A DNA stretch of 44,432 nt from a virus: the IMG/VR virus record IMGVR_UViG_3300047496_000163, positions 1-44,432 of that record. One strand, given 5' to 3'. This document shows, piece by piece, positions 38,847 to 44,432 of this stretch. The notes below the pieces were generated by a model. It was not told where the DNA came from. It did no database searches and saw only the letters and a list, made by a program, of their open reading frames with translations. Each line of letters opens with the position of its first letter. Position 1 is the first letter of the stretch. A program made the translations under genes and the position numbers.

Positions 38847-39293
38847 ATGTCCGAAGAAATCAAAGATTCAATGATGGGCGATTGGAAAACGAAAGACTCC
38901 GGCGAACGCCGCACGTTCGACACCGGCGCCGTCCGCGACGTGAACGCAGGTAAAGGCCGGTTTGACCTGATATCGCCGATCACTCTAGCGCGGCTGGCGG
39001 GTGTCCTTGAGCGGGGTGCGGCCAAGTATGAGGCGCGGAACTGGGAGAAGGGTATTGAATTCTCGTCGTTCGTGAATTCCGCTATGCGGCACCTCAACCA
39101 GTGGGCGAACGGCGAGACGGACGAAGACCACCTCGCCCAGGCGATGTGGAATATCCACTCCCTGATTCACACGGAGCAGAAGGTCAAGGACGGGAAGCTC
39201 CCGAGGACTCTCGCGAATATGGGACCGTCACTTTCTGCGGAGATGGTGGACATCAGTGGGACGGTCAACTTGAGGGAGTTCTTGAAGAAATGA
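38847..39293 (+). CDS. Putative dATP/dGTP diphosphohydrolase (DUF5664-like)
   Basis: 148 residues with an SD GGAGG. The pattern KDSGERRTFDTGAVRDVNAGKGRFDLISPITLARLAGVLERGAAKYEARNWEKG, then SAMRHLNQWANGETDEDHLAQAMWNIHSLIHTE, matches the helical nucleotide pyrophosphohydrolase-like family annotated as dATP/dGTP diphosphohydrolase. It would hydrolyse dNTPs to dNMPs and shape the nucleotide pool. PurZ, needed for the 2-aminoadenine pathway, is not seen in this window. The stop overlaps the polymerase start as ATGA. Confidence 0.75.
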   Translation: MSEEIKDSMMGDWKTKDSGERRTFDTGAVRDVNAGKGRFDLISPITLARLAGVLERGAAKYEARNWEKGIEFSSFVNSAMRHLNQWANGETDEDHLAQAMWNIHSLIHTEQKVKDGKLPRTLANMGPSLSAEMVDISGTVNLREFLKK

Positions 39294-41320
39294 GCCTCCA
39301 TCGCGTCTACATCGACGCCGAAACTTTCTCCGAATGCGACCTACCTGCACGCGGGCTTGCCAATTACTGGGATCACCCGTCTACCGGCATGCACTGCATG
39401 GCCGTCAAAGTGGACAACGGGCCGATCCGTTTGTGGAAGGCCAATTACGAATCCCGGGAAGACCGCGATCTTTTCGGGGAGTTACAAGACCACATCCGCA
39501 CTGGATCGCTCATTGTCGCCCACAAGGCCGAGTTTGAGTTCTATCTCTTGCAACGCTTGGGGTTCAGCGTAAAGCTCGGACAAATGCGCTGCACCATGGC
39601 CAAGGCTGCCGCAATGGCGCTCCCGATGTCGCTTGGGAAGCTGTCGCTGGCGTTGGGTTTCCAGGTCGCGAAACACACCGCCGGCCAGAAGGCCATGCGG
39701 ATCCTCTGCAAGCCGAACCCGGCCACCGGGAAGATGTGGCTTTACCACGAAGCACCGCAGCTGTTTGAGGACCTCTACACCTACTGCATTCAGGACGTCC
39801 AACTGGAGTACGACATAGACCAGATACTGCCGGATTTGTCGGACGAAGAACAAGAGATGTGGGTTCTCGACCAACAAATCAACCGTCGCGGTATCGGCGT
39901 GGACCGACGAGCCGCCGCCGCTGCCTACGAGATTTGCACCGCGGAGATCGGACGCCTGGACGCGGAGATCCGCTCTGCATCTAACGGCGCCGTTGATTCC
40001 ACCAAGGCGGTTCTCCAAATCGCCCGGTTCTGTGGTATGGACAGTGTGGCCAAGGCGAACATCGAGGAGGCGCTTGACGATAGTCTCGTACCCGATCCTT
40101 TGCTTACGGATGCAGGAAAGCGAGTCCTTCGGATCCGTCAGGAAGCCGCCAAATCCTCCGTCCTGAAGCTCAAGCCGATGTTGGAGCTCTGCAGCGCGGA
40201 CGGCCGGGTACGGTGGACGCAACAGTTCAACGGCGCCGGCACCGGGCGGTGGGGTGGGAGGAATCCGCAGCCCCACAATTTCCCCCGTGGTCAGCTTCAT
40301 CTGACTGCGGAAGAACAGAACGTGATGCTGACCTGGTTAGCTAATAACGCAGACAACCTGGAAAGGGCGCGCCAATTCTCCGTCAGCCCGGCCTTGGCTA
40401 CTGTCTCTGACCTTCTCCGAGGGATGTTCATAGCGGCGCCCGGTTACGAGTTCTCCAGCTACGATTTCGCCCAGATCGAGATGGTACTGGGGGCTTGGTT
40501 CGTGGGCGACGAGGGACTACTGGAGGTGTTCCGCGGCGACCGGAAGGTCTACGAGTACACCTACGCCACGAGCTTCGGCGTTTCAATTGAGTCGGTGACC
40601 AAGGACCAGCGCCAGGCTGGAAAGGTTCTGGCCCTAGGAGCCCAGTTCGGTGGCGGTACCGGTGCGCTCATGACCGGTGCAAAGCAAATCAAGATGGTGT
40701 TCGACCCGGACCCCGTCAAAGCGGAAGAAGTCGCTGAGGATCTGAAGGTCCGTTGGCGGGAGGCGCACCCCCGGTTTCCAAAATACTGGAAGGATTTGGA
40801 GAAAGCCGCCAAAGAAGCGGTGATGAATCCCGGGAGGCACTGTACCGACGGAGGTCGTCTAGAGATGGTCTCTTACCACCTCCCCCTGGCCGCTGACGGC
40901 ACGCCGGGCTGTGTGCTACAGTGCACCCTCCCTTCCGGTCGCGTCATCAGCTACCCGTACCCCCGAATCGAGCGCCGCACGGTCACGAAGAAGGACGGCG
41001 ACACCTGGGAAACCGACTCGTTGACCTATATGGTCACCGACAACGGCCGGTGGATGCGGACGGCCACGTACGGCGGAAAGCTGTTTGAGAACATTGTCCA
41101 AGCAGCGGCGGCAGATTTGCTGAGGTTCGCTATCCGGAATCTGAACAACGTTGGCATTGCAACCGTTCTCATGGTTCACGACGAAGTGATTACAGAAACG
41201 GCAACTGGAACGGTGCCGTGGTCAAGAGGCGCGGAGGTTATGGAGCGTCGGCCGGATTGGTGTATGGACTTACCGATCAAAGTAACAGGATGGGTCGGTC
41301 GCAGGTACAAGAAAGACTAA
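39290..41320 (+). CDS. Family A DNA polymerase with 3'-5' exonuclease
   Basis: 676 residues. The exonuclease domain opens with YIDAETFSE (D9, E11) and contains YCIQDVQLEY. The polymerase domain has GAGTGRWGGRNPQPHN, motif A YDFAQIEMVLGAW (D392), motif B RQAGKVLALGAQFGGG (K445) and motif C VLMVHDEV (D631). In motif B the residues equivalent to E. coli Pol I F762 and Y766 are L449 and F453. It replicates the phage genome, probably with the encoded clamp, SSB and primase-helicase. There is no 5'-3' exonuclease domain. Confidence 0.95.
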   Translation: MSLHRVYIDAETFSECDLPARGLANYWDHPSTGMHCMAVKVDNGPIRLWKANYESREDRDLFGELQDHIRTGSLIVAHKAEFEFYLLQRLGFSVKLGQMRCTMAKAAAMALPMSLGKLSLALGFQVAKHTAGQKAMRILCKPNPATGKMWLYHEAPQLFEDLYTYCIQDVQLEYDIDQILPDLSDEEQEMWVLDQQINRRGIGVDRRAAAAAYEICTAEIGRLDAEIRSASNGAVDSTKAVLQIARFCGMDSVAKANIEEALDDSLVPDPLLTDAGKRVLRIRQEAAKSSVLKLKPMLELCSADGRVRWTQQFNGAGTGRWGGRNPQPHNFPRGQLHLTAEEQNVMLTWLANNADNLERARQFSVSPALATVSDLLRGMFIAAPGYEFSSYDFAQIEMVLGAWFVGDEGLLEVFRGDRKVYEYTYATSFGVSIESVTKDQRQAGKVLALGAQFGGGTGALMTGAKQIKMVFDPDPVKAEEVAEDLKVRWREAHPRFPKYWKDLEKAAKEAVMNPGRHCTDGGRLEMVSYHLPLAADGTPGCVLQCTLPSGRVISYPYPRIERRTVTKKDGDTWETDSLTYMVTDNGRWMRTATYGGKLFENIVQAAAADLLRFAIRNLNNVGIATVLMVHDEVITETATGTVPWSRGAEVMERRPDWCMDLPIKVTGWVGRRYKKD

Positions 41321-41325
41321 GAATT

Positions 41326-43563
41326 ATGAGCATGCTCGACTCCGCGCTCTATCTCGCGAGCCTAGGGTTTCACGTTTTTCCAGGGGAGATCGTTACCGCA
41401 GAAAACGGAAAACTTGTCAAGAAACCCATGTGGCGCGGGTGGAAACAGGATGCCACCTGCGATCTGGCAGTAATCGAGAGGATATGGAGGCGCGTCTCCC
41501 ACGCTCTCCCCTTCATATCCACCAGTTATTACACAAACGGAACACTATGGCACCTCAACGTCATAGACGTGGACAACAAAGAGGACCGTTGCGGCTCTGC
41601 GTCGCTCGGCGCTCTCGGGTTCCCTCTTCCCGTGACTTTCACGCAGCGGACGCCAACTGGCGGGTTTCACCTCATATATAAAACCACGGTGCCTGTCGGG
41701 AACACGGTGGGTGTCCTGGGGATCGGGCTGGATACGCGCGGTTGGGGCGGCGTTTTGGCGGGAGCGGGGTCGGAAACACCATCGGGTGTGTACACTATCG
41801 CCGTAAACGAACCCGTGGCCGAAGCGCCACCGGAACTCGCCCTGCTGGTGGGCCCGGCAGATACCCGGGCCCCGTGGGACGGGGAGCTGCCGGAAGGAGT
41901 AAACGAAGAGGCGGCGTACGCGTGGGCGGAAGGCTACCTGAAGTCCCTGCCGATGGCGATGAATGGCACAATTGACGATTACGCTTTTGCCGCTGCTTGT
42001 GCCCTCCAGAACAGGGGGCTGAGTCCCGATGCAATCCATGACGCTATGCTGGAGCACTTCAAGAGTGAGTTGCCCGTTGGCCGCCTCGAGGACATAGCTC
42101 GCCACGCCCACCGCTACGCCAAAGACGCCCCGGGATCCAGAGCTCCGGAGATCCTCTTCAAAAACGAGGTGAAGAAGCCAGCAAACCCTCCCGCAGCCGG
42201 CGGTGTCGAGAGTGAAGAGGCACCGTCCGGCGGGACACCCATAGACTACTTCAACAAAGACCACGCCTTTGTCCTCGGCGGGTCCAGCGGCAACATCTTG
42301 ATGGAAGACTTCGACTCCCACTCCAAGCCCCTGCTGCGGATCATGGGCCTCGAAGCCTTCCACAATCTGAACCTTGGGCTGACCTTCACGGACGGCGACG
42401 GGAAGACCAAACCACTCTCCCGGGTCTGGATGAACTCAAGGAACCGGCGGACGTACCGTGGCCTGGAGTTCGCCCCTGGCCGGGAACTTCCACCCACTTA
42501 CTACAACCTGTGGCGCGGGTTCGCTCATGAGCCACAACCGATAGACGAGGAGCCCGGCCAGCGGTCCAAGGACGCCCTGGCCAACTACCTGTACCTGGTT
42601 CACCACCACATCTCCCACGGGGACGAGGTCGTCAACAAGTACCTGATCACCTGGGCCGCTCAGATGATCCAAGACCCCCAAAACCGCCCCTTTGTCTGCC
42701 CGGTGATCCGCGGGGGAAAGGGGACAGGGAAGGACACGTTTCTGGACGTCCTGGGGGGTCTCTTGGGACCCCACTACTGGCTGACCTCCGAGAAGGAGGA
42801 TTTGGTGGGCCGGTTCAACGAGCAACTGGGGAAGATCCTCCTTTTCGGACTGAATGAAGCGTTCTGGCACGGCGACCACGCGGTTGAGTCCAAACTCAAA
42901 CACATGATCACGGGTGACACGCTTCGCATTGAACAGAAGTTCTGCGTCCCGTACCAGGTGGACAACCTGATGCGGATCTGTATCATGGGCAACGCAGACA
43001 TTCTGGTGCCGGCCACGGACGACGAACGCCGGTGGTTGGTGACTGACACCCGGGCGATCGAGCCCCATGAGACCACCGCTTTTTACGCTTTCTGCGGTGA
43101 GATCCGGGCCGGGATGAAGGCAGGCGGGTACCGTCTGCTCCTCCGGTACCTCATGGACTACGACATCACCCAGGTGAACCTGGGGTTCGCGCCCAACACC
43201 CAGGGCCTCGTGGACCAGAAGGAGGCTGGGCTGACCCCTGTCCAGCAGTACGTCCGGGAATGCATCGCCGCGGGTGCGATCGTGGGCTGCAGCGTGCCTG
43301 TGGGGTGGCCAGAGAAGGTGGCCAAGGATCTGTTCCGGGACGCCTTCCGCCGATGGGCGCGGGACCACAACATCGGAGGCCGGGAGCCGGGGGAACAAAT
43401 CATTGGCCGGCAAATCAACAAGATGAAGCTAGGGATCGACGGGACGCAAAAGATCGCGGCGAAGGACGGGAAACAGACCAACGCCTACGGGCTGCCGTCG
43501 CTTGAAATGGCCCGGAAGAACTGGGACGTGTACATCAAAGCCGTGAAACCAACGGTGTGGTGA
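41326..43563 (+). CDS. PrimPol-type primase fused to a superfamily 3-like helicase
   Basis: 745 residues. The N-terminal bifunctional primase/polymerase domain has GFHVFPG, VIDVDNKED (D81, D83), QRTPTGGFHLIYK and GLDTRGWGGVLAGAGS. The C-terminal helicase domain (DUF5906-like) has IRGGKGTGKDTFLDV (Walker A, K469), LFGLNEAFW, and GNADILVPATDDERRWLV (sensor/arginine region). It primes and unwinds phage DNA. ATG 41326 lies five bases after the polymerase stop; a second in-frame ATG follows two codons later. Confidence 0.9.
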   Translation: MSMLDSALYLASLGFHVFPGEIVTAENGKLVKKPMWRGWKQDATCDLAVIERIWRRVSHALPFISTSYYTNGTLWHLNVIDVDNKEDRCGSASLGALGFPLPVTFTQRTPTGGFHLIYKTTVPVGNTVGVLGIGLDTRGWGGVLAGAGSETPSGVYTIAVNEPVAEAPPELALLVGPADTRAPWDGELPEGVNEEAAYAWAEGYLKSLPMAMNGTIDDYAFAAACALQNRGLSPDAIHDAMLEHFKSELPVGRLEDIARHAHRYAKDAPGSRAPEILFKNEVKKPANPPAAGGVESEEAPSGGTPIDYFNKDHAFVLGGSSGNILMEDFDSHSKPLLRIMGLEAFHNLNLGLTFTDGDGKTKPLSRVWMNSRNRRTYRGLEFAPGRELPPTYYNLWRGFAHEPQPIDEEPGQRSKDALANYLYLVHHHISHGDEVVNKYLITWAAQMIQDPQNRPFVCPVIRGGKGTGKDTFLDVLGGLLGPHYWLTSEKEDLVGRFNEQLGKILLFGLNEAFWHGDHAVESKLKHMITGDTLRIEQKFCVPYQVDNLMRICIMGNADILVPATDDERRWLVTDTRAIEPHETTAFYAFCGEIRAGMKAGGYRLLLRYLMDYDITQVNLGFAPNTQGLVDQKEAGLTPVQQYVRECIAAGAIVGCSVPVGWPEKVAKDLFRDAFRRWARDHNIGGREPGEQIIGRQINKMKLGIDGTQKIAAKDGKQTNAYGLPSLEMARKNWDVYIKAVKPTVW

Positions 43564-43573
43564 GGGAGGAAAC

Positions 43574-43720
43574 GTGGGACCGATTTATTGGAGCTCCAAC
43601 GCCGACCAAGTGGTGAGGAATCAAGAGGAAATCGACAGGATACGACGCGCTCGAAGGCGAATGCTCTTCAGGGGCAGCTACAGTAATTGGTACGCGATAC
43701 TCGGGCCGGGGGGATTGTGA
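43574..43720 (+). CDS. Small hypothetical protein
   Basis: 48 residues from GTG 43574 with AGGGAGG just upstream, ending at TGA 43718-43720. Basic middle (RIRRARRRML) and an aromatic N-terminus (GPIYWSSNADQVV). The next gene's GTG overlaps its stop as GTGA. No family recognised. Confidence 0.55.
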   Translation: MGPIYWSSNADQVVRNQEEIDRIRRARRRMLFRGSYSNWYAILGPGGL

Positions 43721-44432
43721 TTCATGGGATGGCTTTATGTTCCGGGATTGGAGCCATGGATCTTGGCCTCCGACTCGCGCTTGGCACCGGCTACCGCAGT
43801 GTGGTGCACGTCGAACGGGACGCCTACGCTGCAGCCGTCCTCGTGGCGCGGATGGAAGAACAGATCCTGGATCCGGCTCCTATCTGGGACGATGTTGGAA
43901 CCTTCGATGGCCACCCTTGGCGCGGACTGGTGGATATCGTCACTGCGGGATTCCCCTGTCAGCCGTTCAGCCGGTCCGGGCTCCGTCAGGGACTGGCTGA
44001 CGTACGCTGGATCTGGAAAGATATCGCCCGCGTACTTGGCGAAGTTCGGCCAAACTTCATCTTCATTGAAAACGTACCGGAGCTATCCCAGCATGGGTTG
44101 CCCCGTGTCCTTGGGGATCTCTCGGAACTCGGGTTCGATGCGGAGTGGGACTGTTTTTCCGCGAAAGATGTCGAAGCGCCGCACACCCGCGAACGGCTGT
44201 GGATACTCGCTGCCCACGCCGCAAGCCTCGGACGCGGGAACGGGTCCGGAGAGTCTGGAGACCAGGCGGTCTCGGTCGGGGAGCGCGGGACCACGGCTCA
44301 TCGATGCGCTGGCGACACCGCAGGCGCACGACGGGAAGGGGAAGGGGTTCGCGGATTTGAACCTGGCCAACCAGGTTGGTGGGCGCCCGCACCCGGAGTT
44401 CCACTCTTGGCTCATGGGGCTGCCACCAACGT
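43717..44432 (+). CDS. DNA cytosine-5 methyltransferase, N-terminal part (continues at 2-250)
   Basis: The gene starts at GTG 43717 (or ATG 43729) and crosses the contig end; joined length 268 residues. Motif I is ALCSGIGAMDLGLRLAL, motif IV is TAGFPCQPFSRSG with catalytic C81, motif VI is FIENVPEL and motif VIII is HTRERLWILA. It methylates cytosine in DNA, protecting phage DNA from restriction or regulating it. The target recognition region and motif X lie in the overlapping repeat, where a second frame also shows methyltransferase-like sequence. Confidence 0.9.
   Translation, partial: MIHGMALCSGIGAMDLGLRLALGTGYRSVVHVERDAYAAAVLVARMEEQILDPAPIWDDVGTFDGHPWRGLVDIVTAGFPCQPFSRSGLRQGLADVRWIWKDIARVLGEVRPNFIFIENVPELSQHGLPRVLGDLSELGFDAEWDCFSAKDVEAPHTRERLWILAAHAASLGRGNGSGESGDQAVSVGERGTTAHRCAGDTAGARREGEGVRGFEPGQPGWWAPAPGVPLLAHGAATN
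44168..44432 (+). CDS. Alternative-frame ORF inside the methyltransferase gene (continues at 3-275)
   Basis: From ATG 44168 (SD weak) this frame encodes MSKRRTPANGCGYSLPTPQASDAG and continues as LETRRSRSGSAGPRLIDALATPQAHDG into the terminal repeat. LPTPQASD and ATPQAHDG are typical of a second class of phage cytosine-methyltransferase C-termini. It could be an independent overlapping protein, the product of +1 frameshifting from the methyltransferase, or a relic of an older frame. Confidence 0.4.
   Translation, partial: MSKRRTPANGCGYSLPTPQASDAGTGPESLETRRSRSGSAGPRLIDALATPQAHDGKGKGFADLNLANQVGGRPHPEFHSWLMGLPPT
44274..44432. repeat. Right copy of 159-bp terminal direct repeat
   Basis: Identical to bases 1-159 except T at 44305 (C at 32). 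Joining one copy closes the methyltransferase gene and gives a 44,273-base circle. The two ends may come from circular permutation or from a true terminal repeat. Confidence 0.95.

Follow-up and report, generated by a model that had tools for sequence, protein, structure and literature searches.

The window, by which we denote the whole stretch of viral DNA analysed (44,432 nucleotides), ends inside a predicted DNA methyltransferase gene. Its final 159 bases (44274-44432) are a copy of the first 159 (1-159, a repeat without assigned strand) with a single mismatch, C at position 32 and T at position 44305, and the gene was therefore read across the contig join. The repeat is present although the record bears no completeness label; in all probability the contig represents an entire phage genome, read as a circle and with strain variation. 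Across the join, the gene's own frame (frame 0, here called alpha) ends in LLAHGAATNVDRLRCSGNAVVPAVVALAFTELYSRLVGS followed by its stop codon, and the +1 frame (beta) ends in HPEFHSWLMGLPPTWTDCAAPAMPSYRQWLRLHSQSYIRDWSGAEQVERMLG followed by another. The original prediction had placed two overlapping, family-like frames at these joined ends, and both peptides were found there. Just upstream of the methyltransferase, a DNA polymerase gene (phrog_17, 39101-41320) overlaps a gene for a primase-type protein (phrog_1156, 41218-43563) by 103 bases, both on the + strand.

Alpha occupies positions 43717 to 44432 of the + strand and continues from 160 to 250 of the window, where it terminates at a TGA (248-250), giving a joined product of 268 amino acids. 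Its GTG start at 43717 was chosen by alignment with a relative (L004) and by the overlap described below; an alternative ATG lies at 43729. The protein matches PF00145 (1.4e-29) and is assigned to phrog_363 (5e-56), which PHROGs labels as DNA methyltransferase. It shows the ordered motifs of a C5-cytosine DNA methyltransferase, namely I (CSGIGAMDLG), IV (PCQPFS, with the PCQ), VI (ENV) and VIII (RERLWI), and past the join (160-250, RLRCSGNAVVPAVVALAF) it ends with motif X (GNAVVP), in a region that evolves in the alpha frame. An AlphaFold model of alpha from a relative (L018) has a good catalytic domain that matches 1fjx and 1dct, the HhaI and HaeIII methyltransferases. Residues 185-250 of this model fall below a pLDDT of 50 where they overlap the target region of beta, and the alpha segment between motifs VIII and X is a poorly conserved and probably unstructured linker.

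Beta starts with an ATG at 43724, runs on the + strand to 44432 and then from 160 to 275 of the window, where its end past the join (TDCAAPAMPSYRQWLRLHSQSY..) is closed by a TAG (273-275); the joined product has 274 amino acids. Its first approximately 110 codons form a leader that is free of stops and shows no detectable constraint at the protein level. After this leader follow LKTYRS..SGSMRSG.., a segment resembling a target-recognition domain (LPTPQASD..LATPQAHDGKG..) and the block WLMGLPPTWTD, of which WLMGLPPT lies at 44409-44432 (+ strand) and WTD continues at window position 160. From the W codon of this block to the G codon that opens alpha's GNAVVP the distance is 44 nt, the same as in 123 relatives. 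Beta is assigned to phrog_1008 (2.9e-18), likewise labelled DNA methyltransferase in PHROGs. It has no matching model in Pfam or NCBIfam, and a profile search of solved structures gave no convincing relative (best E 0.074). Modelled alone, beta gave a poor structure (mean pLDDT 57.6) that could not be used for structure search; such a model might be expected of a subunit, yet it counts as no evidence. The target region and the IX-like block are collinear with, and similar to, the LPTP and WMMG segments of single-frame enzymes, and the WLMG block would represent motif IX.

A small upstream open reading frame of 48 amino acids (43574-43720, + strand, GTG start preceded by GGAGG) ends in a TGA that overlaps the alpha start as GTGA, an arrangement that is common in relatives. 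A GGGGGG run (43708-43713, + strand), which may serve as a shared ribosome-binding site, lies 3 nt before the GTG of alpha and 10 nt before the ATG of beta. The beta ATG is found 7 nt past the alpha start in the window; the normal spacing in relatives is 4 nt. Most members read xTGAATGAGYTGGC at this place, with alpha starting at xTG and beta at the ATG four bases further on. The alpha slot is ATG, GTG or TTG in 68 of 81 genes, and where it is not a start codon (TTA, CTT and others) alpha has to begin at another site, probably one lying further upstream. Beta starts at one fixed site in 81 of 91 genes (ATG in 73, GTG in 8). The Asn codon of alpha that yields the beta start, at alpha's second position, is AAT in all 54 of 54 cases, whereas AAC outnumbers AAT elsewhere. 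In 49 of 81 genes an upstream open reading frame of 50 codons or more terminates at the beta start, in 29 of them at the TGA that precedes it and in 20 at the TGA within the beta ATGA. The simplest reading of this layout would be two initiations from one ribosome-binding region.

According to the original prediction, both frames are open for about 120 codons. The openness is real but its extent was underestimated: in the window gene, alpha and the +1 frame are jointly open over their whole length of 268 and 274 codons. As a null model, synonymous codons were shuffled with the alpha protein kept, or with the beta protein kept for the reverse test. The +1 frame of the window gene holds no stop compared with 5.05 expected, a value reached by none of 5000 alpha-preserving shuffles, while its +2 frame is unremarkable (3 stops, 5.5 expected). 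For this gene alone, the absence of alpha-frame stops over the target region (0 versus 1.5) is not significant (P = 0.16). Over motifs I-VIII of 91 non-redundant genes, only 6 stops were counted in the +1 frame versus 197 ± 10 expected, and 36 loci from bacterial genomes had none (75.5 ± 6.2 expected); the +2 frame of the 91 genes showed no depletion. In the region between motifs VIII and IX, analysed in 51 genes, neither frame is interrupted: the +1 frame has 0 stops versus 46 expected and, with beta preserved, the alpha frame has 0 versus 139 ± 8. No depletion was seen in the +1 frame of 93 unrelated genes of the same contigs (603 stops, 622 expected), and 30 single-frame methyltransferases had 84 stops versus 111 expected, none of the 30 being open in +1. 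Both frames are thus kept free of stops, and homologues with stops throughout the second frame, which the original prediction had named as a refuting outcome, are not what was observed.

Is alpha then the only gene, with the second frame a by-product of alpha's conservation and a high G+C content? The first approximately 110 codons of beta, which lack constraint at the protein level, would suit this explanation, but it is contradicted by the codon-shuffle null with its controls, and substitutions from motif VI to motif IX spare beta and not alpha. We consider it extremely improbable, and the shuffle and substitution tests rule out beta as a mere shadow of alpha.

The substitutions were compared at codon positions 1/2/3 in 34 sister pairs (16 pairs for the segment between VIII and IX). 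Across motifs I-VIII, the alpha frame gave.119/.061/.272. Between VIII and IX the beta frame gave.254/.235/.487 (16 pairs), and in the IX block.129/.104/.257. In the X region, the alpha frame gave.176/.127/.358. Four-fold sites of alpha differ at 30% in the N-terminal part, at 6.5% in the IX block and at 41% in X. Along the N-terminal part, the four-fold rate of alpha drops to 0.16-0.28 after motif VI, from which it follows that the constrained domain of beta begins there. Selection therefore acts on different segments in the two frames, on motifs I-VIII and X in alpha and on the region between them in beta, where the putative target region and motif IX are both present and constrained. The one mismatch between the repeat copies (32 C, 44305 T) is silent in beta (Asp/Asp) and changes Arg/Cys in alpha, a single case that fits constraint in the beta frame at this place. 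Purifying selection in one frame only, which would have spoken against the original prediction, was not what the relatives showed. The frames look complementary, beta with the target region and IX, alpha with I-VIII and X, and less like two alternative C-termini of one protein.

The position at which constraint on beta sets in leaves room for another reading, in which beta is translated in this phage from an internal start near GFDAEW/SGSM and the upstream +1 frame stays untranslated. Protein-level constraint on beta only after motif VI is consistent with it, as are upstream +1 stops in five relatives (L003, L070, L087, L099 and L100) and the second gene of mycobacteriophage Dylan, which its annotators begin there. 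But nearly all members keep the +1 frame without stops back to the alpha start, and the ATG or GTG beside that start is conserved, for which reason we regard an exclusively internal start as unlikely. Both beta starts could be in use.

A single polypeptide made by programmed ribosomal frameshifting, from alpha into +1 after motif VIII and perhaps back for X, would also have its N-terminal part and X track the alpha frame and its middle track +1. In a programmed frameshift, the downstream frame is startless and open only past the shift; here +1 is open from the alpha start. Frameshifting would need no open +1 frame upstream of the shift, yet only the 6 stops instead of 197 occur there, no open alpha frame through the target region, yet 0 stops are found against 139, and no start codon in +1, yet a conserved one exists. 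Because both open reading frames are kept open where frameshifting would not need them, it is disfavoured, and we judge it improbable.

The relatives were drawn by motif patterns from viral contigs, isolate phages, plasmids, E. coli and other bacterial genomes; one round of selection demanded EW[LM]MGWP and biased the collection towards loci with that motif. Within this set, 123 loci combine the IX-like WLMG in +1 with a motif X exactly 44 nt on in the alpha frame, and their alpha is open from VIII to X. Another 32 loci carry VIII, IX and X in a single frame, mostly with 72-78 nt between IX and X, and in 3 loci alpha stops after VIII and IX and X stand together in +1, as in M.AquI. Only one (L027) has IX in the frame of the N-terminal part and X out of frame. 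In a tree of the catalytic part, which has several long branches and gives only a rough placement, the two-frame genes stand apart from the single-frame and AquI-like ones, and L027 is nested among the former; as a single frame-shifted locus inside the two-frame genes it was rejected as evidence of frame switching. Two-frame genes were found in records of Pseudomonadota, Verrucomicrobiota, Planctomycetota and Acidobacteriota. Full length of the +1 frame is missing in L070, L080, L087, L099 and L100.

This distribution also bears on the idea that misassembly of the contig ends produced the two frames. In its favour, the gene does span the join, and there is a one-base difference between the repeat copies. 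Against it, each reading passes the join and leads into the homologous end that was expected, and isolate phages, plasmids and bacterial genomes show the layout as well. An assembly artefact, in our estimate an extremely improbable origin, is ruled out by this recurrence.

Among the relatives, phrog_1008 was matched by 41 of 41 beta domains and phrog_363 by 35 of 35 alphas; these families, kept separate in PHROGs, are two frames of one DNA. The proposal that the two known C-terminal classes are frame-alternatives of one sequence thus stands in so far as WLMG and GNAVVP lie in two frames of the same DNA at 123 loci, but the classes look like partner subunits, and among the collected loci none was seen to use either class at will, L027 being the lone exception.

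In a close known precedent, M.EcoHK31I, the coding sequence of the small subunit is contained in the gene of the large subunit, in a different reading frame. M.EcoHK31I is a two-polypeptide m5C methyltransferase recognising YGGCCR (Lee et al. 1995, summarised in PMC3404938), whose larger subunit carries motifs I-VIII and X and whose smaller one carries motif IX, with the predicted target-recognition domain placed in the large subunit (PMC3404938). Compared by description, the window gene divides its motifs in the same way, with I-VIII and X in alpha and a putative IX in beta. It differs in that the stretch from VIII to IX evolves in the beta frame and not in that of the large chain, and it is therefore a variant and not EcoHK31I itself. 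Moreover, beta starts beside the alpha start and runs full length here, and the members reside in phages, prophages and prophage-like plasmids. The M.AquI-type split (I-VIII/IX-X) also yields two chains, and mycobacteriophage Dylan (L088, 1098-2049) and Arthrobacter phage ArV1 (L090, 906-2376) have overlapping +1 genes of this type. In contrast to the window gene, IX and X are in frame with each other in their second chain at ordinary spacing (72 nt in Dylan), whereas X here belongs again to the alpha chain, in a frame other than that of IX and 44 nt away from it. The single-chain phage m5C methyltransferases (the 32 loci, mostly L103-L181) share the motif order and the LPTP..WMMG..GNGVVP segments, but read VIII, IX and X in a single frame and do not keep +1 open. 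Paenibacillus larvae phages such as Bloom (gp56/gp57) have a nested double annotation, with two overlapping coding sequences in different frames that are both named DNA cytosine methyltransferase, although beta begins internally there. The passages found of a paper on 48 Paenibacillus phages (PMC6070908) do not discuss the overlap. Searches of a collection of open-access literature turned up no account of such a layout in phages, which is weak evidence of novelty.

Taken together, the motif content and its evolution make it highly likely that the locus encodes a two-subunit phage m5C methyltransferase from two full-length overlapping genes, split like M.EcoHK31I. Alpha would contribute the SAM-binding and catalytic motifs I-VIII plus the C-terminal motif X, and beta the target-recognition region and the IX-like block behind an unconstrained run-in of about 110 residues. 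Given the division of motifs as in M.EcoHK31I, beta most likely supplies a small DNA-reading domain to alpha, and by the same precedent both chains may assemble into one active enzyme. A single ribosome-binding region would serve to initiate both, often perhaps by termination-reinitiation at the stop of the upstream gene, and the enzyme may guard phage or prophage DNA against restriction. As for its origin, a single-chain gene may have changed frame downstream of motif VIII and become shorter between IX and X. Somewhat less firmly, we favour the broader proposition that such full-length same-strand pairs are widespread in phages and prophages, with starts a few bases apart overlapping upstream stops so that the halves of an enzyme are made from one message in a fixed ratio, and that they go back to single-chain ancestors in which insertions or deletions shifted X out of the frame of IX. 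To our knowledge, bacteria and tailed phages rarely have long overlaps of same-strand genes for which comparative evidence supports both frames, and the two-frame gene would allow dual initiation behind a single ribosome-binding region to be tested by ordinary means.

If this holds, many records lack or misname the hidden second subunit of a common enzyme, genes cloned or annotated in one frame represent half an enzyme, and the two methyltransferase C-terminal classes, like the two PHROG families, go back to two frames of the same DNA. Across the more than one hundred related phages and prophages, annotation mostly gives a single frame. The same gene has been deposited in three ways: with alpha only (Salmonella phage S9-5, Acinetobacter phage ABMM1, E. 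coli PT62), with beta only, as 'hypothetical protein' (Pseudomonas phage phPA-G, a P. aeruginosa plasmid, a Vibrio phage), and with both frames (Paenibacillus phage Bloom).

Several single loci depart from the common layout. In L035, L054, L063 and L064, the motif X pattern follows VIII at 0.8-1.0 kb in the +1 frame and the first IX pattern gave no matching IX, possibly reflecting an insertion or a frame change. The prophage copy of E. coli PCP07014 (L096, 1501-2262) is annotated as a pseudogene with an internal stop, and both frames have a stop there. In L003 and L060, which share the two-frame layout, IX and X are 89 and 59 nt apart (44+45 and 44+15), and the frame relation is kept.
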